This document shows positions 28,663 to 39,190 of a DNA stretch of 64,000 bases, in pieces. The notes beneath the pieces were generated by a model. It was not told the DNA's origin, did no database searches, and worked only from the letters and a program-made list of their open reading frames with translations. Position 1 is the first letter of the stretch. The number at the start of each line of letters is the position of its first letter. The position numbers and the translations under genes are program-made. Where the stretch lies: contig JAFSNK010000021.1 of assembly GCA_017447445.1 (NCBI GenBank), positions 103,390 through 167,389 on the forward strand. Direction: 5' to 3'. Origin of the DNA: Clostridia bacterium (GTDB lineage Bacteria > Bacillota > Clostridia > Oscillospirales > CAG-382).

Positions 28663-28691
28663 TTGACCAAATCCCTACGATGTTTTATAAT
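28663..28691 (+). promoter_or_regulatory. Sigma-A promoter of the MMPL exporter
   Basis: -35 TTGACC (28663-28668), 17-base spacer, -10 TATAAT (28686-28691), about 30 bases before the ATG. It separates vegetative expression of the exporter from the spoVA operon upstream. Confidence 0.8.
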
Positions 28692-28722
28692 CTTTTCATC
28701 AGCAGCATATCAGAGGAAAGTT

Positions 28723-31020
28723 ATGAACGCAAAAAATAAAAACGGCGGCGCCCTCGAACGGTTTACGACGGCTCTCGCTTCCTACATAATAAAATACAGA
28801 TTTATCATTTTTGCGCTGTTCGCCGCGGCGGCGGTATACTGCGCGCTTTCGGCGGGCAAAGTCCGCGTCAACAACGAGCTCACCGCCTTCCTCCCGCCCG
28901 AATCGGAAACGCGGCGCGGGATATCCGTTATGAGCGACGAATTCATAACGTACGCCTCCGCAAGCGTGATGCTCGAAGACGTCACCGCGGATGAGGCAAA
29001 AAGCGCGGCGGACGGCATCGCCTCGCTTGCACACGTGGCGGAAGCGGATTTCGACGAAACTCCGGCGCATTACCGCGGCGGTTCCGCGCTTATAAACGTA
29101 TCGTTCGACTGCGCTGAAACGAACGCCGCCGTTTCCGAAACGATGGACGAGATCAAACAGATCGTCGGAAAATACAAGTATTACACTTCTTCTTCGTTTC
29201 TGCATAACTACGGAAAACAGCTTGCCGACGAAATGATAGTCGTAATGCTCATCGCCGTGATCGTTATCCTGGCAGTACTGCTGTTCACTTCCAGAAGCTA
29301 TTTCGAAGTTATCATTTTCGGGATAGCGTTCGTATTCGCCGCGTTGCTCAACCTCGGGACGAATTACTGGCTGGGCGAGATCTCGACGATAACGAATACC
29401 GTTGCGGTCATACTCCAGCTTGCGCTTGCGATAGATTACGCTATAATATTCGCGCACAGATATCAGGACGAGCTGCTTAAAGGCGGCGGCGAACGCGAAG
29501 CGCTCACAAGTTCCCTTGCAAAATCGATGGTCGAAATTTCTTCCTCGTCTCTTACCACGATATCCGGTCTCGCCGCGCTCACGCTTATGCAGTTCCGGCT
29601 AGGATACGACCTCGGCACCGTGCTTGCGAAAGGCATAGTTTGCAGTATGCTCACGGTGTTCCTTCTTATGCCCGGACTTATATCGCTGTTCCCGCGGATA
29701 CTCAAAAAGACCGCGCACCGCAAGCTATTGCCGAATATCGAAAAATGGGGCGGGATCTTAATGAACTCAAAATACGCGTTCGTTATTCTCTTCGCGCTGC
29801 TGCTCCCGTTCGCGGTTTATTTCTCTCAGAACGCGGTATACGCGTTTTCCGACCAGTCCGTAAGCGAGATAGTCACATCCGAGCGCCGCACCGCTTTACA
29901 TAAGATAAACGATACTTTCTCGCCAAACACCTCGATAGCCGTTATAGTGCCGAAGGGCGATTATAAAAAAGAAAAAAACGTGCTCGATTCGGTCTCGTCG
30001 CTTGAAGGCGTAAAAAGCGCGCTCGGCATAGCAAGCATAGAATACGCTCCCGGAAAACCGATAACGGAAGAATACGGCAGCGCCGAGTTCGGCGGAATGC
30101 TCGGAATATCCGAGGAATACTCTTCCCTGCTTTTCGCCTCGTATGCGACGAGCAAGGGCGACTATTCGTCCTTCGCTTCACCGGACTACAAAGTGCCGCT
30201 TGTCGATATGGCTTCTTATCTTTTCGGAATAATCGACGAAGGGCTTGTGAATCTTACGCCCGAGCAGCGCGCGGTCCTTGCGGAAGTCCGCCCGCAGCTT
30301 CAGCGCGCGACCGACCAGCTTTGCGGTACCGCCCACGACAGACTGATAGTGTCCTCTTCCTACGCGGTGGAAAGCGCAGAAGCGTCCGCGCTGGTGGAAA
30401 GCATACGCGCCGCCGCGGCAAAAGAGTATCCCGCCGAGGAGATAATAATTGCCGGCGACGTTACGAGCGCCCGCGACCTGCGCAATTCCTATAAGAGCGA
30501 TTCGGTGCTGATACGCATACTCACTATCGCTTTCGTGTTTATAATACTGATGTTCACGTTCCGCAGCTTTGCCGGAGCGGCGATACTTGTATTCGTGATT
30601 CAAGGCAGTATCTGGATAAACTTTTCATTTACTTACCTGTTCGGTTCGCGTCCCTCGTTCGTTACCGATATGATAGTCTCCGCCATACAGATGGGCGCGA
30701 CCATAGACTACGCGATAGTGCTTTTCAGCCGCTACAAGGCGCTTCGCGAAAAATACGAAAAGAAGCGTGCAATGTCGCTTGCCGTGAACGAAAGTTTCCC
30801 CACGGTCATCACGTCCGGCGCTATAATGGCCGCCGCGGGACTGCTTATAGCGTTCCGTATAAGCGACGTATACGTCGGTCATATAGGGCTCGCCGTCGGG
30901 CGCGGCGCGATAATTTCCGTTATACTTGTGCTGACCGTTCTTCCTCAATTGCTCGTACTGCTGGATAAAGCGATAGAAAAAACCACTATCCGGTTCAAAC
31001 GCCGCGAAAAAACAGAATAG
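28723..31020 (+). CDS. MMPL/RND-family exporter
   Basis: RND-superfamily membrane transporter, 765 residues, with the duplicated architecture of MMPL proteins. There is one helix near residue 25-45 and an extracytoplasmic domain (about 50-165), a five-helix bundle with ALAIDYAIIFAHRYQDE, a central cytoplasmic loop, a second extracytoplasmic domain (about 375-590), and a second bundle with GATIDYAIVLFSRYK. The paired D-Y motifs are the proton-relay positions. Substrates of this family are lipids or hydrophobic compounds; none can be named here. Start at ATG 28723 behind GAGGAAAG; the earlier in-frame start overlaps the promoter. Confidence 0.92.
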   Translation: MNAKNKNGGALERFTTALASYIIKYRFIIFALFAAAAVYCALSAGKVRVNNELTAFLPPESETRRGISVMSDEFITYASASVMLEDVTADEAKSAADGIASLAHVAEADFDETPAHYRGGSALINVSFDCAETNAAVSETMDEIKQIVGKYKYYTSSSFLHNYGKQLADEMIVVMLIAVIVILAVLLFTSRSYFEVIIFGIAFVFAALLNLGTNYWLGEISTITNTVAVILQLALAIDYAIIFAHRYQDELLKGGGEREALTSSLAKSMVEISSSSLTTISGLAALTLMQFRLGYDLGTVLAKGIVCSMLTVFLLMPGLISLFPRILKKTAHRKLLPNIEKWGGILMNSKYAFVILFALLLPFAVYFSQNAVYAFSDQSVSEIVTSERRTALHKINDTFSPNTSIAVIVPKGDYKKEKNVLDSVSSLEGVKSALGIASIEYAPGKPITEEYGSAEFGGMLGISEEYSSLLFASYATSKGDYSSFASPDYKVPLVDMASYLFGIIDEGLVNLTPEQRAVLAEVRPQLQRATDQLCGTAHDRLIVSSSYAVESAEASALVESIRAAAAKEYPAEEIIIAGDVTSARDLRNSYKSDSVLIRILTIAFVFIILMFTFRSFAGAAILVFVIQGSIWINFSFTYLFGSRPSFVTDMIVSAIQMGATIDYAIVLFSRYKALREKYEKKRAMSLAVNESFPTVITSGAIMAAAGLLIAFRISDVYVGHIGLAVGRGAIISVILVLTVLPQLLVLLDKAIEKTTIRFKRREKTE

Positions 31021-31166: not shown

Positions 31167-31949
31167 TTATCCGAGCGCCACGTCGAGCGCCATCATAACC
31201 GTGAATCCGAGCGCGAACATAACGACTCCGGTATTTGAATGCTCGCCCGCCGACATTTCGGGGATCAGTTCCTCCACGACGACGTAGATCATCGCGCCCG
31301 CAGCGAACGAGAGCAGATAAGGCATCGCGGGAACGAACAGCCCGGCGAACAATACCGTTAAAAGCGCGCCTATCGGCTCGACGGCGCCGGACAGCGCTCC
31401 GCCGAGGAACGCCTTGCCTTTCGTCTTTCCCTCCGCGTGAAGCGGCATGGAAATGATCGCGCCCTCCGGGAAGTTCTGTATCGCGATACCGATGGAAAGC
31501 GCCAGCGCGCCGCCCGCCGTGATCTCGGCGGAGCCGGAGAGGAGCCCTGCGAATACGACGCCGACCGCCATCCCCTCGGGAACGTTGTGCAGCGTGACCG
31601 CGAGCACCATCATAGTGGTCTTCTTCGCTTTGCTTTTTAATCCCTCCGCCTGTTCTGCGTTAATATGCAAATGCGGGATGATCTTATCGAGCAGGAGCAA
31701 AAACAGAATTCCGAGCCAGAAGCCGATGAAAGCGGGCAGAAACGCCCATCTGCCTTTGTCGGCGCACTGATTCATAGCCGGGATAAGAAGACTCCAGATC
31801 GACGCCGCGACCATCACCCCGCCCGCGAAACCGGTCAGCGCGCGCTGTACCGTGCGGCTCAATTGTTTTTTCATAAAGAACACGCACGCCGAGCCGAGCG
31901 CCGTTCCTATAAACGGGATCGCTATCCCTTCAGCAACTTTCAGCCACAT
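31167..31949 (-). CDS. ZIP-family divalent metal transporter
   Basis: Imports Zn, Mn or Fe into the cytoplasm. 260 residues, eight predicted helices, with the signature metal-site helices HNVPEGMAVG (TM4) and IQNFPEGAIIS (TM5), plus a histidine-containing loop (IIPHLHINAEQ). It resembles the ZupT/GufA branch. The ATG at 31949 follows AGGAG; an upstream reading from 31988 would cross a palindrome and has no ribosome-binding site. Own promoter at 32055-32083 with two matching inverted repeats in the 5' region, suggesting metalloregulation. Confidence 0.92.
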   Translation of the reverse strand: MWLKVAEGIAIPFIGTALGSACVFFMKKQLSRTVQRALTGFAGGVMVAASIWSLLIPAMNQCADKGRWAFLPAFIGFWLGILFLLLLDKIIPHLHINAEQAEGLKSKAKKTTMMVLAVTLHNVPEGMAVGVVFAGLLSGSAEITAGGALALSIGIAIQNFPEGAIISMPLHAEGKTKGKAFLGGALSGAVEPIGALLTVLFAGLFVPAMPYLLSFAAGAMIYVVVEELIPEMSAGEHSNTGVVMFALGFTVMMALDVALG

Positions 31950-31961
31950 TGATGATCTCCT

Positions 31962-31977
31962 GTCAGCCGGCGCTGAC
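31962..31977. promoter_or_regulatory. Inverted repeat upstream of the ZIP ribosome-binding site
   Basis: GTCAGC-CGGC-GCTGAC, a perfect 6-4-6 palindrome immediately upstream of the ribosome-binding site. It has the same pattern (GTYAGC-N4-GCTRAC) as the palindrome at 32038-32053. Confidence 0.5.
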
Positions 31978-32037
31978 TTGTGACGCAAATAATAAAGAGC
32001 AAAACTCTTGAATTCCGTCGTACGGTGAATAATTTCG

Positions 32038-32436: not shown

Positions 32437-33108
32437 TCACAACTGATTCTGCGTTTCGGTATACGGCAGAAGCGCGACTTCAAGGTTTCCGTTTTTAGTC
32501 CGGAGCTCGTCGATAAACGCCTTTTCCTCCGCCGGATTCTTTAACTGCACTTTATAAGAAAGCCGGAACATACTGCCCATACCGGTCGTTTTAACGCCAG
32601 CGTTCTCGAACTTTTTAAGATAGTGGGCGAAGACGTCTTCGAAAGTGCCGTTGTATTCGAGCGATTCGGGTATCGTGATGCGCAGAAGCTGATCCGCCGC
32701 CATATTTTTATGCTCGAACAGAGGCACAAGACCGAGGACCGCGAAAAGCGCCGCGAGCGCGAGCAGGATCACTACGCCGTAGCCGATATATCCCATTCCG
32801 AACGCTATGCCGGAGCCCATCGCAATGAGTATCGCGGCGATCTCTTCCGCGCTGCCCTGAGCCGAGCGGAAGCGTATGAGACTGAACGCGCCGCCGATAG
32901 CCACGCCGGCGCCGATATTGCCGTTGACGAACGTGATGACCGCCGCTACTACGAACGGGATCATTGCCGTTACGATGAAGAACCGTTTGGTCGAACGGAT
33001 ACGGAAACTCATTATCCAGGAATACAGAAAACCTACCGCGAGCGCGACGCCCGCCATAATGAAGAACTGCGACGGCGTCACGGTGGAAGAATAAATGGAA
33101 TCAAACAT
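32437..33108 (-). CDS. DUF4956 membrane protein
   Basis: 223 residues with about four membrane helices in the first 130 residues, including the family's conserved segment GGAFSLIRFRSAQGSAEEIAA between helices, and a soluble C-terminal domain (about 140-223). Function unknown. DUF4956 genes are commonly found beside VTC-domain (polyphosphate polymerase-like) and CotH genes. Here it is 15 bases after a VTC gene and ends the operon. Start at ATG 33108 behind AAGGAG; a TTG two codons earlier is possible. Confidence 0.88.
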   Translation of the reverse strand: MFDSIYSSTVTPSQFFIMAGVALAVGFLYSWIMSFRIRSTKRFFIVTAMIPFVVAAVITFVNGNIGAGVAIGGAFSLIRFRSAQGSAEEIAAILIAMGSGIAFGMGYIGYGVVILLALAALFAVLGLVPLFEHKNMAADQLLRITIPESLEYNGTFEDVFAHYLKKFENAGVKTTGMGSMFRLSYKVQLKNPAEEKAFIDELRTKNGNLEVALLPYTETQNQL

Positions 33109-33123
33109 AATCAATTCTCCTTC

Positions 33124-33822
33124 TTAAAAGTTTTGTGCCTTGAGAAGCTGTTTGCGGTACGCTTCTCCGTATTTTGAAAAACTGCCTTTGCGGATCCCGC
33201 CTTCGGAAAGGATGCCGCACAGCCACAGCGGCATAGCGTCCTGGACCTTTATTTCAAGAACCGTCCATCCCTCGTCAAGGAGCGAAATGCCGTCCATCGA
33301 TTTCGTAAGAGTAAGATCGTCGAGGCGGTAACGGGGATTTTCGTCTATGGTCAGGCGAAGGTCTCCGCACGGCTCGAAATACGCCGTCCGGTCGTAGATT
33401 ATCATACAGGACGGAACCAGAGTTTTATAGTGATCGCGGAATACCGTTATCTCTTTGTTTATCTGTCCGGGAGCGCAGATATCGCCCTCCCCCGAAAAGA
33501 ATTTGCCTACAAGCGGTATCGTCGTCTGCACGCGTCGCTTATATACGATACCGTACGCTTTGCGTTTCAGTTCGAGGAACACGGGGGATTCGTCCGTCGC
33601 GAGACCGTAGGAGCGCAGGCGTATTTTCTCTTTGAACTCCGGTTTTTCCACGCTCGTGCGGATAAGCTGATAGGTCGGCGTATCGTAGTAAAGCGACGCG
33701 ATCGAGGTCTTTCCGTACTGATCGACCTCCATATGACCTTTCAGACGTTCGCGAAGGAAATCCGTTTGTTCGGCGGTGAGCAGGTACTTCAGCTCATACC
33801 GCTTCATTACCGTGATCGCCAT
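33124..33822 (-). CDS. VTC-domain protein (polyphosphate polymerase-like)
   Basis: A 232-residue protein of the CYTH-like tunnel fold related to yeast Vtc4, which makes polyphosphate from ATP. The alternating charged strands lining the tunnel are visible: MKRYELKYLL, SLYYDT, KEKIRLRSYG, VFLELKRK, KRRVQT, IIYDRTAYF, LRLTIDEN and TVLEIKV, so the basic and acidic catalytic positions appear retained. Located between a degenerate histidine kinase and DUF4956. Whether bacterial members make polyphosphate or another polymer is not established here. Confidence 0.88.
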   Translation of the reverse strand: MAITVMKRYELKYLLTAEQTDFLRERLKGHMEVDQYGKTSIASLYYDTPTYQLIRTSVEKPEFKEKIRLRSYGLATDESPVFLELKRKAYGIVYKRRVQTTIPLVGKFFSGEGDICAPGQINKEITVFRDHYKTLVPSCMIIYDRTAYFEPCGDLRLTIDENPRYRLDDLTLTKSMDGISLLDEGWTVLEIKVQDAMPLWLCGILSEGGIRKGSFSKYGEAYRKQLLKAQNF

Positions 33823-33838
33823 ATTATCACCTCCGCCG

Positions 33839-35068
33839 TCATAAAGCTATGCGGATCGTGAATACCCCGCCGGAGACCGACGCGGACGCGCGTCCGTTGT
33901 GCGCTTTTACGGTCTGTTTTACGAATGAGAGCCCGAGTCCCGCGCCGCCTTCCTTCGCGTTCTGCAGCGTCGTGAACCTGTCGAACGCCTGGTCCGCGGG
34001 GCCGTCCGGAAGGTCGGTATCGTTGCTTGCTTCGATTATGACAGATCCGTTTTCCCGGTTCAGCTTGAAGCACGCTTTCGTTAATGCGAATTTAAGCGCG
34101 TTTTCTATAAGCTCGTCCGTGAGTTTGCTCATCCCTTCCGGATCGGCAATGACCGTAACTTCCGGCGCTATTTCCGACGTCAGTTCGATGCCGCGGGATG
34201 AGAAGCTTATCGCCGCGCGGTCAAGAGCTTCGGCAAGCTGATCCGAAAGAGAGATTTCGGCGGCGCTCATCTTTTCTTTGTCGAATATCCCGACGGAACC
34301 GAGCTTATCGACAAGCTCGTTCATTTTTGCGACCTGGCGATGCGTCGAGCGCGTCTGGTCGTCCGGTCCGTATCTGCGTTCCGTAAGTTCGGTGTTTCCG
34401 TCTATGATCGTAAGCGGGACACGGAATTCCTTGTTTGCGTTGGCGATAAAGTTCTTCTGTTTTCTGTCCGCTTCCTCAAGAGGCGCGTATATCTTTCTGC
34501 CGATGGCGAGAAGCACGAACCAGCCGATAACAAGCACCAGGACCTCGCCTATCGCGGATATTATCAGTATGCGGAAGGACGGAAGCAGCTCGCGCCCCTG
34601 GTCGATGACCGTTACGTAGGTCGTCCCGTGCTCCTTATAAACCCGATAGCGGTAGGTTCCCCTCGTCCATCCGGTCTTCTGCTTCATAAGCCCGTAAGCC
34701 CATTCTTTGGCTTCTTCCTCGGTTACTGCGGAGATATGGAAAGCGACCGTTTCGGCTTTCTCGCCGTTTTCGGAGAAGGCGACGGTGAAATACCGCAGGG
34801 ATTCGTTCATCTCGGGCGAGTCGGGTCCCATCGGTCCCATTCCGAAATCCTTGTTCCGCGGCTGATCCGGCTGGAACTGTATCCCGTCGGGCAGATTCTC
34901 CCTGTGCTCGAAAGAGCCCTGCTTATCGGCGAGCTTCTGCGTCAAAACGTCCGCGTCGCTCGCCGCCATCGTGAAGTTCACTCCGTTAATGACCGCGAGG
35001 AGCAGCGTAAGCAGAACGAATATCACGAGTATAGCGTACAGTCTGAATTTCTTTTCCGCTTTATTCAT
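33839..35068 (-). CDS. Degenerate sensor histidine kinase lacking the phosphoacceptor histidine
   Basis: 409 residues arranged like a kinase: membrane helix (about 10-34), extracytoplasmic domain (about 35-165), second helix (about 166-190), dimerisation helices and HATPase. Aligned with the neighbouring intact kinase (GHELKTP), the phosphoacceptor histidine is replaced by Lys213 in NKEFRVP. The N-box asparagine (LIENALKFA) and a GAGLGLSFVK G2 box remain, but the G1 region is weak. Probably a pseudokinase or sensor scaffold. Its ATG overlaps the receiver gene stop by 8 bases. Extracytoplasmic part rich in Met/Asp/Pro (GMGPMGPDSPEM). Confidence 0.88.
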   Translation of the reverse strand: MNKAEKKFRLYAILVIFVLLTLLLAVINGVNFTMAASDADVLTQKLADKQGSFEHRENLPDGIQFQPDQPRNKDFGMGPMGPDSPEMNESLRYFTVAFSENGEKAETVAFHISAVTEEEAKEWAYGLMKQKTGWTRGTYRYRVYKEHGTTYVTVIDQGRELLPSFRILIISAIGEVLVLVIGWFVLLAIGRKIYAPLEEADRKQKNFIANANKEFRVPLTIIDGNTELTERRYGPDDQTRSTHRQVAKMNELVDKLGSVGIFDKEKMSAAEISLSDQLAEALDRAAISFSSRGIELTSEIAPEVTVIADPEGMSKLTDELIENALKFALTKACFKLNRENGSVIIEASNDTDLPDGPADQAFDRFTTLQNAKEGGAGLGLSFVKQTVKAHNGRASASVSGGVFTIRIAL

Positions 35069-35450
35069 CTTTTTTCACCGCTTCTTTCCTTTCTTTACCG
35101 ATATTGCTTTCAAGCGTATGGCGCACGGCGTCTTTTACGCTGTCAAACGTGAACGGATATGAGAGCATACCGTCCGGAACGGGCTCGTCCGCTTTGTTCC
35201 GCAAACCGGCGGGACCGTCGGTCAGTACGACTACCGGGACGTTTTTCGCGTTCGCGCGTTCGATTATCGTTTTATGGTCGACGCGCGGTAGATTCCGGTC
35301 GAGCAGCGCGATATCGAAGCTTTCTGTCGAAAGCAGCGTTATGACCTGCGTTCCGTCGAACGCGGTGACCGTTTCTCCGAGATCGGTCTCAAGCAGTTTT
35401 TTGTAGCACTCGAGCAGGTCTCTGTCCGGTGCGGCAAAAAGTATTTTCAT
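35061..35450 (-). CDS. Stand-alone receiver-domain protein, atypical
   Basis: A 129-residue receiver with no DNA-binding output domain. Asp51 (ALLDRNLP) and the Thr of VVLTDG are kept, but the conserved lysine of the KP-F motif is Tyr (LSYPF), and the N-terminal acidic pair is altered (APDRD). Such changes usually weaken phosphorylation-driven switching. It is 19 bases downstream of the Cthe_2159-like lipoprotein and overlaps the degenerate kinase by 8 bases, so the two are expected to act together. Confidence 0.85.
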   Translation of the reverse strand: MKILFAAPDRDLLECYKKLLETDLGETVTAFDGTQVITLLSTESFDIALLDRNLPRVDHKTIIERANAKNVPVVVLTDGPAGLRNKADEPVPDGMLSYPFTFDSVKDAVRHTLESNIGKERKEAVKKDE

Positions 35451-35469
35451 GGTTCGTTCCTCGTTTCTT

Positions 35470-37125
35470 TCAAGCCGAAACGGTCACGTCGCTGTAGCAG
35501 GCGGTGCTTCCGTATGCGTTCGCGTTCGTGAAAGTGTAGGCGACGCCGTCGATATTGACGGTGTGGCTTCCTGCCGAATGCAGCGAGAGCGAATAGTTCT
35601 TTACGCCGCCGCTTGCGCTTATTCTGCCGTAGCCGAGCACTATCAGCGTACCGCCCGAGATGCTTATGGAGCCGTCCGCGTCTATCGCCGCCATATTCTG
35701 ATTATTCGGGCCTCTGGTGATAACCACGCCGCCGGTCTGATTGTAAGTGCCGTTACTGTCTATGCCGTCGGTGTCGCCGTTCGGAGATACCGTCACGTCG
35801 AGATATCCGCCCGTCACGTTGACCGAGGGAGTCGATACGCCTTTGCAGGCGTTCACTCCGTCGTCGTTCGCGGCTACAACGGTTTTGCCGCCGGAAACGT
35901 TTATCACGTTTGCTTCAAGCCCTTCGTACGCGCTGTCGACGGTTATGGTACCGCCGGAGATATTCAGGATGTTGTCCGCGTGGATCGCGTCCGCTCCGGA
36001 GACTGTCTGCTGTCCGCCCCATCCGCCGCGTCCGTCGGGGCCCTGCCTTCCGCCCGCGGTCTTGTTTTCGGGCGCGTAGACGCTCATATTGACGGTGCCG
36101 CCGGAAACGTTTATCGTGCCCTTCCCTTTCGTTCCGTCTTCGAACGACGCGCCGTAATCTGCGTGAAGTCCGTCATCGTAGGTGTGAAGCGTTATTGCGC
36201 CGTCTTTAATATTCAGCTCGTTCTGTACCTTAACGCCCTTATATGAGGTCGTCGATGCGTTTGAAGCGGTGTATCCGCTGTAAGATCCGGTATATACCGT
36301 AACTGTCGGAGCCGCGCCTTCTTCGCCCGCTGACAGCTCAAAGTTACGCGCCGCCTGGAAGCCGTCGCCCGCCGCGTAGACGGTTACCGTGCCTCCGGTA
36401 ATAACGATATCGCCTCTTGTAACGCCGTTTTTGCTGACGTCGGTGTTTTCGGTCTTAACGCCGTCGCCGTTGGTCGAGATCGCAACGACCGTTCCGCTTG
36501 TGATCTTTACGGAATCGTTGCCTTTAAGCGCGTTGTTGTACGCGGTGACCTTCAAAGCGAGATTCTGTATCTTCAGATCGTCGGTCGTGTGGATACCGTT
36601 GTTGTACCCGGCGTTTACCACCAAAGTGCCGTTTCCTTTTATCTTAAGATCGCACTTCGCGCAGATCGCGCCCTCGCCCTGATCCGCGTCGTCCGTGGTC
36701 TTTGCGGAGCGAGTGTCGTTTATCACGTTTTCCGTGCCTTTCTTTGCGGATATATCGACGCTGCCTGCGGAAACGATTTTTATCGGCGAATCGGCGCCGT
36801 AACTTACCGTCGCGCCGGATAACTCGATGACTACTTCGTCGTCCTCTCCCGCGTCGACCAGGATCTGTCCTTCAAGAAGCCCGGTCGCGGTGTAGGTTCC
36901 CGCCGAGGTGATCGTGTATACGTTTCCGGAATTCGAAAACGTTCCGTCCGCGGAAGTCATTTCAAAAGTTCCCGTCGCTTCCTGCGCAGAAATATCACTG
37001 TCCACCGCCGGCTCCGCAATTTCGTTTGCCGAGCTTGCCGTGCCGTCCGTAACGGCGCCGTTCCCGCACGCCGCAAGCCCCAGCGCAAAGATCATCGCAA
37101 TGATCATGGCAAGTATCTTTTTCAT
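35470..37125 (-). CDS. Cthe_2159-like beta-helix lipoprotein (carbohydrate-binding)
   Basis: A 551-residue exported lipoprotein: lipobox GLAAC with the lipidated cysteine at residue 20, a short acidic linker, then a long repetitive right-handed beta-helix. Repeating units of the type ISGGTITV, VNVSGGTVN and AAGDGFQA, with DDGLHAD, GDGVKT and NDDGVNA turns, mark the Cthe_2159 family, whose founding member binds acidic pectin-like polysaccharide and calcium. A Gly/Gln-rich loop occurs near residue 355-370. First gene of the operon that continues with the degenerate receiver, degenerate kinase, VTC and DUF4956. Surface location is supported by the signal sequence. Confidence 0.85.
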   Translation of the reverse strand: MKKILAMIIAMIFALGLAACGNGAVTDGTASSANEIAEPAVDSDISAQEATGTFEMTSADGTFSNSGNVYTITSAGTYTATGLLEGQILVDAGEDDEVVIELSGATVSYGADSPIKIVSAGSVDISAKKGTENVINDTRSAKTTDDADQGEGAICAKCDLKIKGNGTLVVNAGYNNGIHTTDDLKIQNLALKVTAYNNALKGNDSVKITSGTVVAISTNGDGVKTENTDVSKNGVTRGDIVITGGTVTVYAAGDGFQAARNFELSAGEEGAAPTVTVYTGSYSGYTASNASTTSYKGVKVQNELNIKDGAITLHTYDDGLHADYGASFEDGTKGKGTINVSGGTVNMSVYAPENKTAGGRQGPDGRGGWGGQQTVSGADAIHADNILNISGGTITVDSAYEGLEANVINVSGGKTVVAANDDGVNACKGVSTPSVNVTGGYLDVTVSPNGDTDGIDSNGTYNQTGGVVITRGPNNQNMAAIDADGSISISGGTLIVLGYGRISASGGVKNYSLSLHSAGSHTVNIDGVAYTFTNANAYGSTACYSDVTVSA

Positions 37126-37154
37126 CTTTCCTTATCCCCTTTTCTTAGTTTTCA

Positions 37155-37208
37155 GTATAAAACAACAACCCTCATCCGTTTGCTGTGGCCTTATCATAAC
37201 GGATGAGG
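37155..37208 (-). terminator. Terminator after the intact histidine kinase
   Basis: Minus strand CCTCATCCGTT (37198-37208) pairs perfectly with AACGGATGAGG (37170-37180), followed by GTTGTTGTTTT. It separates the two-component operon from the lipoprotein operon. Confidence 0.8.
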
Positions 37209-37245
37209 ATTGAAGAAAGATTGAAAGATTTTCAGTTTTTGAAAT

Positions 37246-38517
37246 TTATTTTTTGACCGGGAGCGATACCGTAAATATCGCCTTTCCGTCCCTGTATTCC
37301 GCGTTTATCCGCCCGCCGTGCGCTTCCGTCACGGCTTTGGCGATGGAAAGCCCGAGCCCGTAGTGCGCGTCCGCATCGTTACGCGCCTCGTCCGCGCGGT
37401 AGAAGCGTTCAAACAGATGCGGCATCTGCTCCGCGCTCATCTCCGGCGCTCCGTTCGAAACGGCAAGCACCGCGTGATGCTTTTCTTTATGAAGCGAAAG
37501 CCCTATAACTTCGGTCGTTCCGTGTGACAAAGCGTTGTCGAGCAATATCGAAACAAGCTGGCGTAACTGATTCGGGTTCCCTTCGATCAACAGCCCGGGT
37601 TCGATATCCGTTTCGATGCTTTTTCCTTTTTCGTAAGCCAGCGTTTCAAACGGGAGCGCCTCGCCGTCCGCAAGCTTCGAAAAATCGACCGTTTCCTTGG
37701 GCATTTCGCCGTTTTCCGCTTTGGAAAGCGCCAAAAGCTGTTTTACCAGGTCGGACATACGCTCGTTTTCGTAGTCGATATTATCTAGCCATTCGCTTTG
37801 TCCGATCTCCCGTTTCAACAGTTCGCTGTTTGCGGAAATAACGGCTATCGGCGTTTTCAGTTCGTGCCCGGCGTCGGATACGAACCTTTTCTGCCGTTTG
37901 TCGTTCTCTTCGAGCGGACGGACTATGCGGCGGGCTATGAAGATCGAAATGATCAATATCACGACCGTCGCGGCAGAACCGATGATAAGCATCTGGCGGA
38001 AAAGCAGCGATTGATTGTTATCGTTTATCGTTCCGTCTATCATCGCGACTAGCGTATAATCGCCGCGCTCCTCCACAAGATAAGTCATATTCCCGGATTT
38101 GCCGCTTTTCTTACCGTTTTTAAGTATTGCCGACGCTGTCTCCAGCAGAGCTTCCTCGCTTTGCAGACCGTTGCTGCCGTTGTTTACCGCAAGCACCTCG
38201 CCTTCGCTTGAATAAGCGACGGAATAAAAGGTGGAAAGACGGAATTCGCGCTCGTCTTTTACGGGCCTGTCGCCGCGCGGTTCGTTTATTTCGCCCGGGC
38301 GGAATTCCGGCGCGTCGTCCGGGCGCTTTTCCCCGTCCGGAGGCGGCGTTTGTTCGTCAAGCGCGTACCTTTCGGCAAAGGTCCTTAGCATTTCCCTGCT
38401 GTCGCGGTCGAGCGCGGCGCGGTTGGAAATATAGATCGTCGTCAGCGTGACGACCATAAGCGCAAGCAGCGAAAACACTACCGTAAAAACAATATTTCTT
38501 CGTGTTTTATTGAACAT
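37246..38517 (-). CDS. Sensor histidine kinase
   Basis: 423 residues with a first helix (about 8-30), an extracytoplasmic domain (about 31-172) containing an acidic, proline-rich stretch (DGEKRPDDAPEFRPGE), a second helix (about 175-196), phosphoacceptor His218 in SDAGHELKTP, an N-box LLDNALSHG and the YGLGLSIAK G2 box. It overlaps the response-regulator stop by 11 bases. It is clearly paralogous to the degenerate kinase at 33.8-35.1 kb (shared RPLEENDKRQKRF / APLEEADRKQKNF juxtamembrane segment). Confidence 0.92.
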   Translation of the reverse strand: MFNKTRRNIVFTVVFSLLALMVVTLTTIYISNRAALDRDSREMLRTFAERYALDEQTPPPDGEKRPDDAPEFRPGEINEPRGDRPVKDEREFRLSTFYSVAYSSEGEVLAVNNGSNGLQSEEALLETASAILKNGKKSGKSGNMTYLVEERGDYTLVAMIDGTINDNNQSLLFRQMLIIGSAATVVILIISIFIARRIVRPLEENDKRQKRFVSDAGHELKTPIAVISANSELLKREIGQSEWLDNIDYENERMSDLVKQLLALSKAENGEMPKETVDFSKLADGEALPFETLAYEKGKSIETDIEPGLLIEGNPNQLRQLVSILLDNALSHGTTEVIGLSLHKEKHHAVLAVSNGAPEMSAEQMPHLFERFYRADEARNDADAHYGLGLSIAKAVTEAHGGRINAEYRDGKAIFTVSLPVKK

Positions 38518-39190
38518 CGCGGCACCTCAGTTCGTACCCTATCCCGCGCAGCGCCTTTATCTCGCATCTTGATTCTACGAACGCGAGTTTCTTGCGCGCA
38601 AAGGACATATATACTTCAACGTTGTTATACTCCGAATCGCTCTCATAGCCCCATATTTTCAACGCTATCTGCTCGCGCGTAAGCACCCGCCCCTGATTGG
38701 CGATAAGGTATTCGAGTATGCGAAGCTCCTTTTCGCCGAGCCGCACGCTCTGGCCGTTATCGCATTTCAGCACCGCGTTCTTCACGTCGAGAGTAAGGTC
38801 TTCGTATTTCAGACTTCCGTCGTTCGTCGGGAGATTCCGGCGCCCGAGCGCGCGCAGCCGGGCAAGCAGCTCTTTGGTCATAAACGGCTTTGTCAAATAA
38901 TCGTCCGCGCCGCTGTCGAGCCCTTCGACCTTGTCGTCAAGCTCGCTTTTCGCGGTGAGCATTAGGATCGGCGTGCGTATGCCCGCCTCTCTCGCCTTTT
39001 TTGCCACGGCGAATCCGTTCATCCCGGGCATCATCACGTCGAGCACGCAGATATCGTATATATCGCTCTCTATCTCGTAAAGCGCGTCCTCCCCGTTGTC
39101 GACGGCGGTCACCTCGTATCCCTCCTGGCGCATTATCTCGCATAACGCGCGGTTCATTCTTTTTTCGTCTTCCGCAAGCAATACTTTCAT
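38507..39190 (-). CDS. OmpR/PhoB-family response regulator
   Basis: 227 residues from ATG 39190, which has a GGAGG upstream; a longer reading to 39307 lacks support. Receiver with Asp51 (VLDVMMPGMNG), Thr of LTAKS and Lys of LTKPF, then a winged-helix domain with REQIALKIWGYESDSEYNNV and the VEVYMSFARKKL recognition helix. Coupled to the downstream kinase. A likely target is the adjacent lipoprotein-VTC-DUF4956 operon, but no operator was identified. Confidence 0.93.
   Translation of the reverse strand: MKVLLAEDEKRMNRALCEIMRQEGYEVTAVDNGEDALYEIESDIYDICVLDVMMPGMNGFAVAKKAREAGIRTPILMLTAKSELDDKVEGLDSGADDYLTKPFMTKELLARLRALGRRNLPTNDGSLKYEDLTLDVKNAVLKCDNGQSVRLGEKELRILEYLIANQGRVLTREQIALKIWGYESDSEYNNVEVYMSFARKKLAFVESRCEIKALRGIGYELRCRDVQ

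Follow-up and report, generated by a model that had tools for sequence, protein, structure and literature searches.

The window, a 64,000-nucleotide stretch of Clostridia DNA, carries on its reverse strand a histidine kinase-like gene (psHK) and a receiver-like gene (psRR), located between a VTC-DUF4956 gene pair and an intact two-component pair. The features are as follows:

32437..33114 (-), DUF4956 membrane protein (PF16316), which adjoins VTC in every such locus
33124..33822 (-), VTC-domain protein (PF09359), predicted to be a polyphosphate polymerase; a 16-base gap separates it from psHK, which lies upstream
33839..35068 (-), psHK, pseudo-histidine kinase of 409 aa with a HisKA-type DHp domain lacking the phospho-His and a HATPase-like CA domain
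34418..34420 (-), psHK codon 217 (Val), position of the HExxT phosphatase Thr; V, I or L in 31/31 orthologues
34430..34432 (-), psHK codon 213 (Lys), phospho-His position; K in 20, R in 6, S in 3, M in 1 and Q in 1, His in 0/31
35061..35450 (-), psRR, pseudo-receiver of 129 aa, without an output domain in the clade of the window member
35157..35159 (-), psRR codon 98 (Tyr), switch-Lys position; Y in 26, F in 4, L in 2, Lys in 0/32
35298..35300 (-), psRR codon 51 (Asp), phospho-acceptor position; Asp in 29/32, otherwise Q, S or E
35427..35432 (-), psRR codons 7-8 (Ala-Pro), acidic Mg-binding pair; acidic in 0/32
35470..37125 (-), Cthe_2159-type secreted carbohydrate-binding protein (PF14262), with solved relatives 4peu/4phb
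37246..38517 (-), intact HisKA histidine kinase (GHELKTP, His218), an optional neighbour
38507..39190 (-), intact OmpR/PhoB-type response regulator (E7, D8, D51, K101), an optional neighbour

Two membrane segments and an extracytoplasmic sensor are predicted for psHK, which shares 26% identity with the intact neighbour kinase across its full length including the sensor. The HisKA/HATPase architecture was recognisable in profile alignments to HK853 (3dge/2c2a), CpxA and DivL. The NKEFRVP motif starts at residue 212, hence Lys213 is the His position, and the alignment to HK853 placed K213 on the His and V217 on the Thr of HELRTP. This bears out the preliminary description, which had reported, with correct ORF coordinates, a kinase without its phospho-His. 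Its account of a receiver that keeps Asp51 and has Tyr98 instead of the switch Lys was confirmed as well. Beyond that account, the Mg-binding acids are gone (E7-D8 in the intact regulator versus A7-P8 in psRR) and the phosphatase Thr is absent from psHK (Val217). The Pfam HATPase_c score of psHK was over the cut-off (41.8 bits, cut-off 26.4), and HisKA in psHK (21.9 bits, E 1.8e-4, cut-off 26.9) and Response_reg in psRR (28.9 bits, cut-off 30.2) were under theirs; the intact pair scored far over the cut-offs. The single-chain model of psHK (pLDDT 67), mostly confident in the CA domain but not in the DHp turn and lid, served for the general fold only.

The comparison sets comprised 31 psHK orthologues and 32 partner receivers. 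The peptide patterns for finding close psHK orthologues exclude the H box, and in the genomes of the family the psHK profile left a clear gap between the His-less members (E ≤ 1e-191) and the next kinases (1e-58). No relative with a normal His was found among the 31 orthologues, which rules out a one-off mutation or an assembly error. Of the proposed His-to-Lys change, the loss of His was universal in this set, but Lys itself is not conserved. On the tree the site swaps among K, R, M, Q and S at least 10 times, which rules out that a conserved Lys has taken over a catalytic role. A substitute phospho-His elsewhere in psHK was likewise rejected, as no His occupies an invariant or nearly invariant column. 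In all 32 receivers DD1, DD2 and K are absent, and the Thr is variable. As judged from the alignments, no member examined has a phospho-His, phosphatase Thr, Mg-binding acidic pair or switch Lys, and the absence of His and Thr suggests that psHK would have neither autokinase nor phosphatase activity. In the tree, a long stem leads to a single clade that unites the pseudo-kinases. The pair, on this phylogeny, has a single origin and is therefore not a one-off mutation.

Selection on both genes was estimated from pairwise comparisons. Eight of the nine psHK comparisons gave an omega of 0.07-0.09 and the ninth, L053/L067, gave 0.21; neutrality was rejected in all nine pairs (2dlnL ≥ 37), and the DHp region of the eight low-omega comparisons gave 0.02-0.08. 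For psRR, omega was 0.17-0.27 in eight comparisons and neutrality was rejected; one very close pair, which has little power, gave 0.8. These values indicate that the dead pair is kept by purifying selection, and relaxed selection was not observed for psHK. The earlier proposal that catalysis was lost while the genes were kept thus held, with His absent from 31/31 orthologues of several families and omega mostly about 0.07-0.09. Over 18 loci, the mean identity of psHK was 0.692 versus 0.668 for the intact kinase, and that of the sensor 0.679 versus 0.535. The receiver changes roughly threefold faster than psHK and also faster than its intact counterpart (identity 0.512 versus 0.861); its conservation covers alpha1 and the loops near the old active site but not alpha4 and alpha5. 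Carriers of the dead pair are described as rumen bacteria, and a search of plasmid records found only distant kinases.

In the window and in 30/30 loci whose sequence extends downstream, psHK is followed by VTC and DUF4956. Locus L032 stops 35 bases past psHK, and its assembly has no VTC of the psHK-linked subclade. All psHK-linked VTCs belong to this one subclade, and its sister is L040, the sole non-linked VTC. In the sample of the order, in which VTC occurs in 264/388 genomes, each VTC with at least 72% identity has an adjoining psHK. The VTC neighbour scored 135 bits with PF09359 (cut-off 23), and the predicted protein matched yeast Vtc4 structures weakly (E = 0.27); on the Pfam domain and this match, a polyphosphate function is predicted. 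Literature searches on VTC/DUF4956 found no description, and such systems are little described there. The Cthe_2159-type gene lies upstream in most, not all, loci.

The preliminary description also stated that the receiver has no output domain. This is correct for the window member, which is a receiver without the C-terminal winged helix of OmpR/PhoB regulators, but not as a general trait, since most relatives keep a degenerate domain: an OmpR-type tail without one DNA-binding helix. The long form has a predicted fold (pLDDT 93.9) that matches OmpR/PhoB regulators, and in hhalign the deletion falls on the segment containing REQIALKIWG. On the tree the tail was dropped about five times, the window lineage included, and the missing output domain of the window psRR is a late loss.

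The dead pair had further been interpreted as a duplicate of the intact pair next door. Loss with retention agrees with our data, but a recent tandem duplication from the neighbour pair is not supported. The trees recovered neither such a duplication nor a grouping of psHK with the operon kinases, and the AU test did not reject this grouping (p = 0.458). In the four divergent members whose flanks are complete, the dead pair adjoins VTC-DUF4956 and no intact pair lies alongside; therefore VTC-DUF4956 appears to be the neighbour that matters.

Since the dead pair is under selection and has a constant VTC neighbour, it probably signals by shape or binding rather than by phosphate. What the comparisons demonstrate is the conservation alone, whereas its target and mechanism we infer. 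Our best explanation, at somewhat less than even confidence, is that psHK and psRR are a catalytically dead pair kept as a phosphorylation-free membrane signalling or scaffolding module for VTC-DUF4956. A more specific version, in which the dead kinase acts on the dead receiver by conformation and the complex directly gates the VTC-DUF4956 polyphosphate machine, we propose only tentatively. The conserved extracytoplasmic sensor would still alter the packing of the transmembrane and DHp helices, and the conserved alpha1/active-site face of psRR would dock onto this helix bundle. The complex would bind VTC, the predicted cytosolic polyphosphate polymerase, and DUF4956, the products of the next two genes, and their activity or assembly would be switched by conformation rather than phosphotransfer. 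The CA domain, with its N-box Asn and GLGL, may bind nucleotide, making the ATP level a possible second input. DNA binding would have been abandoned, the ancestral OmpR-type output having lost one HTH helix and later, several times, the whole tail. Against this module, co-expression alone can account for the operon linkage, and an action on the intact pair is equally possible in loci that have one.

Such an action would resemble that of RocA of Streptococcus, a membrane-bound HK-like pseudokinase that regulates CovS by protein contact and does not need the phospho-His to do so (PMC7028121). Here psHK would heterodimerise with or tune an active kinase, either the intact neighbour or a different one of the cell, and psRR would compete with the intact regulator, which we consider unlikely but worth weighing. 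The resemblance of psHK to the intact kinase over its full length, including sensor and membrane segments, fits this idea, as does the intact pair sharing the operon in 18 loci, and besides RocA/CovS there are precedents in ChrS, which works with HrrS (PMC9491836), and in DivL with CckA, which modulates an active kinase (PMC4211667, PMC9430884). However, the intact pair lies upstream in only 18/25 loci, whereas VTC-DUF4956 is never missing. The dead pair persists without an adjoining intact pair in L092-L095, L062 and L049, and an intact regulator orthologue is absent from assemblies G290 (99% complete), G538 (96%) and G015 (91%) and was not found in the genomes of L044 and L062. The H-box faces are also unlike (NKEFRVP versus GHELKTP). 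It is less probable still that operon transcription is controlled by the intact pair, with psRR/psHK acting constitutively on their target according to how much of them is made, a model class set out for CmrRST (PMC12632262). The single operon with short gaps, and with the 8-base psRR-psHK overlap kept across relatives, would suit it, but it would leave unexplained the loci without an intact pair and the psHK sensor, which is better conserved than its counterpart in the intact kinase.

Asp51, present in 29/32 receivers, might still become phosphorylated somehow, with a small molecule or a different kinase as the phosphate donor, or the CA domain of psHK, whose N-box Asn and GLGL are present in 31/31, might phosphorylate a partner His in trans. 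With both Mg-binding acids and the Lys absent from 32/32 receivers, Asp51 replaced by Q, S or E in three of them, no conserved His in psHK, a shortened lid and mostly Thr at the Arg of the FYR motif, we regard phosphate signalling by another route as very improbable. Hardly any credence is left for a functionless duplicate of the neighbour pair decaying into a pseudogene. The repeated loss of the psRR output domain and the faster evolution of psRR point that way, but about 32 genomes, drawn from several families and a second order, carry intact frames, and for psHK the omega values and the rejection of neutrality in every pair refute it.

Pseudo-kinases and pseudo-receivers are already known, but singly, and no account of a two-component pair dead in both members turned up in the literature searches. 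RocA retains a dispensable His (H246) and targets an active kinase; psHK has lost the His, its partner receiver is dead too and its constant neighbour is VTC-DUF4956. DivL of Caulobacter has Tyr at the phospho-His site. It resembles psHK in its HK fold with a replaced phospho-His, and 4q20 is a structural neighbour of psHK, but DivL works with active kinases (CckA) and a phosphorylatable DivK, whereas psHK has K, R, M, Q or S at the site and a dead receiver. An additional precedent comes from Myxococcus, with EpsW as the regulator and EpsZ as the activated transferase. There, a membrane enzyme of polymer synthesis is the direct target of a single-domain response regulator (PMC12802240), but with neither a dead kinase nor a VTC enzyme. 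CmrT of Clostridioides difficile is, like psRR, a pseudo-receiver whose clostridial operon also encodes a kinase and a regulator nearby (PMC12632262). It accompanies an intact HK-RR pair, whereas psRR is paired with a dead kinase of its own, encoded by an overlapping gene. Among 20 cases in a 2025 review of pseudo-receivers, only CmrT and FrzS are non-orphans, and activation mechanisms are called a mystery (PMC12632262). An excerpt on Gram-positive Pel clusters lists CotH, poly-phosphate polymerase and DUF4956 accessory genes, the same polymerase-DUF4956 neighbourhood as here, but this excerpt describes no pseudo-two-component pair (PMC7112168).

A conserved doubly dead pair with overlapping genes would be a natural separation of conformational from phosphoryl signalling. 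If the phosphate-free module is real, this signalling route keeps the two-component fold and drops phosphate chemistry at both ends. The constant VTC-DUF4956 neighbours offer a concrete candidate output and an entry point to the control of bacterial VTC-DUF4956 systems, and in genomes without the intact pair this candidate can be tested free of interference.

The psHK gene, encoding a pseudo-histidine kinase that lacks the phospho-histidine, and the gene of its partner pseudo-receiver, psRR, overlap by 8 bases in the window, as they do in nearly all relatives. Because of this overlap and the short intergenic gaps, the following seven genes are likely to form a single operon, listed in transcription order:

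39190-38507, minus strand: RR, intact OmpR-type regulator
38517-37246, minus strand: HK, intact HisKA kinase
37125-35470, minus strand: secreted Cthe_2159-type carbohydrate-binding protein
35450-35061, minus strand: psRR, receiver
35068-33839, minus strand: psHK, kinase
33822-33124, minus strand: VTC protein (PF09359)
33114-32437, minus strand: DUF4956 membrane protein

Downstream of the operon lie genes for an MMPL-family transporter (28663-31020, plus strand) and a ZIP-type metal transporter (31167-31988, minus strand).

Genome contigs were scanned with six psHK peptides, all from outside the H box. Of the 26 loci that this yielded, 25 are orthologous; most come from MAGs of rumen and omasum Clostridia (63-87% identity). 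Profile searches of related genomes added G015, G169, G316, G399, G333, G290 and G538, of which G538 belongs to a different order of the class. At the family level the gap between psHK members and ordinary kinases was empty, while in the order and class searches inspection was limited to matches below 1e-80, and intermediates above this value could exist there. Profile alignment to the structural reference kinase HK853 (3dge/2c2a) placed Lys213 of psHK on the phospho-His, as stated in the preliminary description, and Val217 on the Thr of HExxT. Among 31 sequences the His site is occupied by Lys (20), Arg (6), Ser (3), Met (1) or Gln (1) and the Thr site by Val (13), Leu (11) or Ile (7); Glu214 is retained in 30 and Pro218 in all 31. 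No conserved His was found at any psHK position in the orthologue alignment, and the psHK tree requires at least 10 changes of letter at the His site. The conserved trait is the lack of His, which held across genomes, rather than any one substitute; conservation of Lys itself did not hold.

The window psRR keeps Asp51 and has Tyr98 at the switch-Lys position, in agreement with the preliminary description, and its acidic pair is replaced as well (Ala7-Pro8). Among 32 members the acidic-pair positions are always non-acidic, the switch-Lys position holds Tyr (26), Phe (4) or Leu (2), and Asp51 is present in 29. The absence of an output domain applies to the window member but is not a general trait: psRR is about 198 aa long in most relatives, with an OmpR/PhoB-like tail. 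For the L061 member (AlphaFold2 mean pLDDT 93.9), the Foldseek matches were full-length OmpR/PhoB regulators. Compared with RR by profile, psRR has a gap across the segment containing REQIALKIWG, one helix of the helix-turn-helix of RR. The ten members without a tail are scattered on the tree, requiring about five changes. Conservation in psRR is 0.73-0.93 in alpha1 and the loops beside the old active site and 0.46-0.47 in alpha4/alpha5, a pattern that would match dimerisation of the OmpR type less well than docking onto the helix bundle of a kinase.

In psHK the N-box Asn323, Glu319, Asn349, Phe362, Asp363, Phe365 and GLGL never vary. psHK lacks the G1 Asp of HK853, but so does the neighbouring HK, which has Ser there; the psHK lid is shorter, and most members have Thr in place of the FYR Arg. 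Judged from these residues, psHK could possibly bind nucleotide, and catalysis on its own DHp would not be expected. In HK, Ser-Asn-Gly stands where the usual Asp of the G1 motif (DxGxG) would be, seemingly a general feature of its kinase subgroup. The extracytoplasmic sensors of psHK (about 34574-34969) and HK (about 38004-38418) are alignable, neither has a Pfam domain, and they look like one sensor family common to kinases beside VTC/Cthe_2159 genes.

Selection was measured with pairwise codon models in nine comparisons; several dS values exceed 1 and are therefore rough. For psHK, omega (dN/dS) was 0.07-0.09 in eight comparisons and 0.21 in L053/L067, and neutrality was rejected in all nine, confirming purifying selection. 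In the eight comparisons other than L053/L067, omega of the DHp region was 0.02-0.08. For psRR, omega was 0.17-0.27 in eight comparisons and 0.8 in L053/L067, a very close pair with almost no power. Across the 18 loci with all seven genes, mean identity was similar for psHK and HK (0.692 versus 0.668), higher for the psHK sensor than for that of HK (0.679 versus 0.535) and much lower for psRR than for RR (0.512 versus 0.861).

The trees gave no support to the suggested duplication of the neighbouring intact pair. All psHK sequences fall into a single, long-stemmed clade (support 100), and a sister grouping with the operon's intact kinase was neither recovered nor rejected (AU p = 0.458). The VTCs adjoining psHK form one subclade, whose sole further member, from L040, is sister to all linked VTCs and thus bears on gain versus loss of the dead pair. 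This locus (L040:10635-15870, genome G051) reads RR-HK-Cthe_2159-VTC-DUF4956 without a dead pair.

Wherever the sequence extends far enough, in the window and in 30 of 30 other loci, VTC and DUF4956 come after psHK. The L032 sequence, which stops 35 bases past psHK and whose assembly (G015) has no VTC of the linked subclade, says nothing on this linkage. In the order sample of 388 genomes, all VTCs at least 72% identical to that of the window adjoin psHK, a set that includes G165, whose contig carries only the psHK end. VTC is far commoner (264/388 genomes) than psHK (14/394). The data favour a module in which the dead pair has VTC-DUF4956 as its constant partner. This VTC presumably makes polyphosphate, judging by its Pfam domain and a weak similarity to Vtc4.

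In the mechanism we propose, psHK would sense conditions outside the membrane, psRR would dock onto its helix bundle, and the complex would gate or assemble the VTC-DUF4956 machine through conformation. In Myxococcus exopolysaccharide synthesis, a receiver acts directly on a membrane polymer-synthesis enzyme (PMC12802240), and RocA (PMC7028121), ChrS (PMC9491836) and DivL (PMC4211667, PMC9430884) are pseudokinases acting by contact. At loci with an intact pair, psHK and psRR may instead tune an active kinase in the manner of RocA, a reading that we consider less likely overall. The intact pair lies upstream of the dead pair in 18 of 25 loci and is not alongside it in the divergent loci L092-L095. 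In two of these divergent members of family f23, an alpha-amylase-type gene (L092:3735-5309, L094:3924-5498) replaces the Cthe_2159 gene directly 5′ of the dead pair. Searches of G290 (completeness 99%), G538 (96%), G015 and the L044 and L062 genomes found no orthologue of the intact regulator; its absence from these genomes is tentative because the assemblies are MAG-type.

His is missing from about 0.9% of HisKA domains and Asp from 2% of receivers (PMC12632262), and singly psHK and psRR are of known kinds. Apart from CmrT and FrzS, the 20 characterised pseudo-receivers are orphans (PMC12632262), whereas psRR has its own linked dead kinase. We found no description of a linked kinase-receiver pair with both partners dead in the open-licence papers searched; what is new is the conserved dead pair and its VTC-DUF4956 linkage. 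An extra intact regulator-kinase pair of a different kinase subgroup occurs within or near the operon in L053:3671-5618, L056:3496-5488, L067:2177-4124 and L051:11277-13225, and in some loci up to three two-component pairs are grouped around VTC/Cthe_2159 genes.
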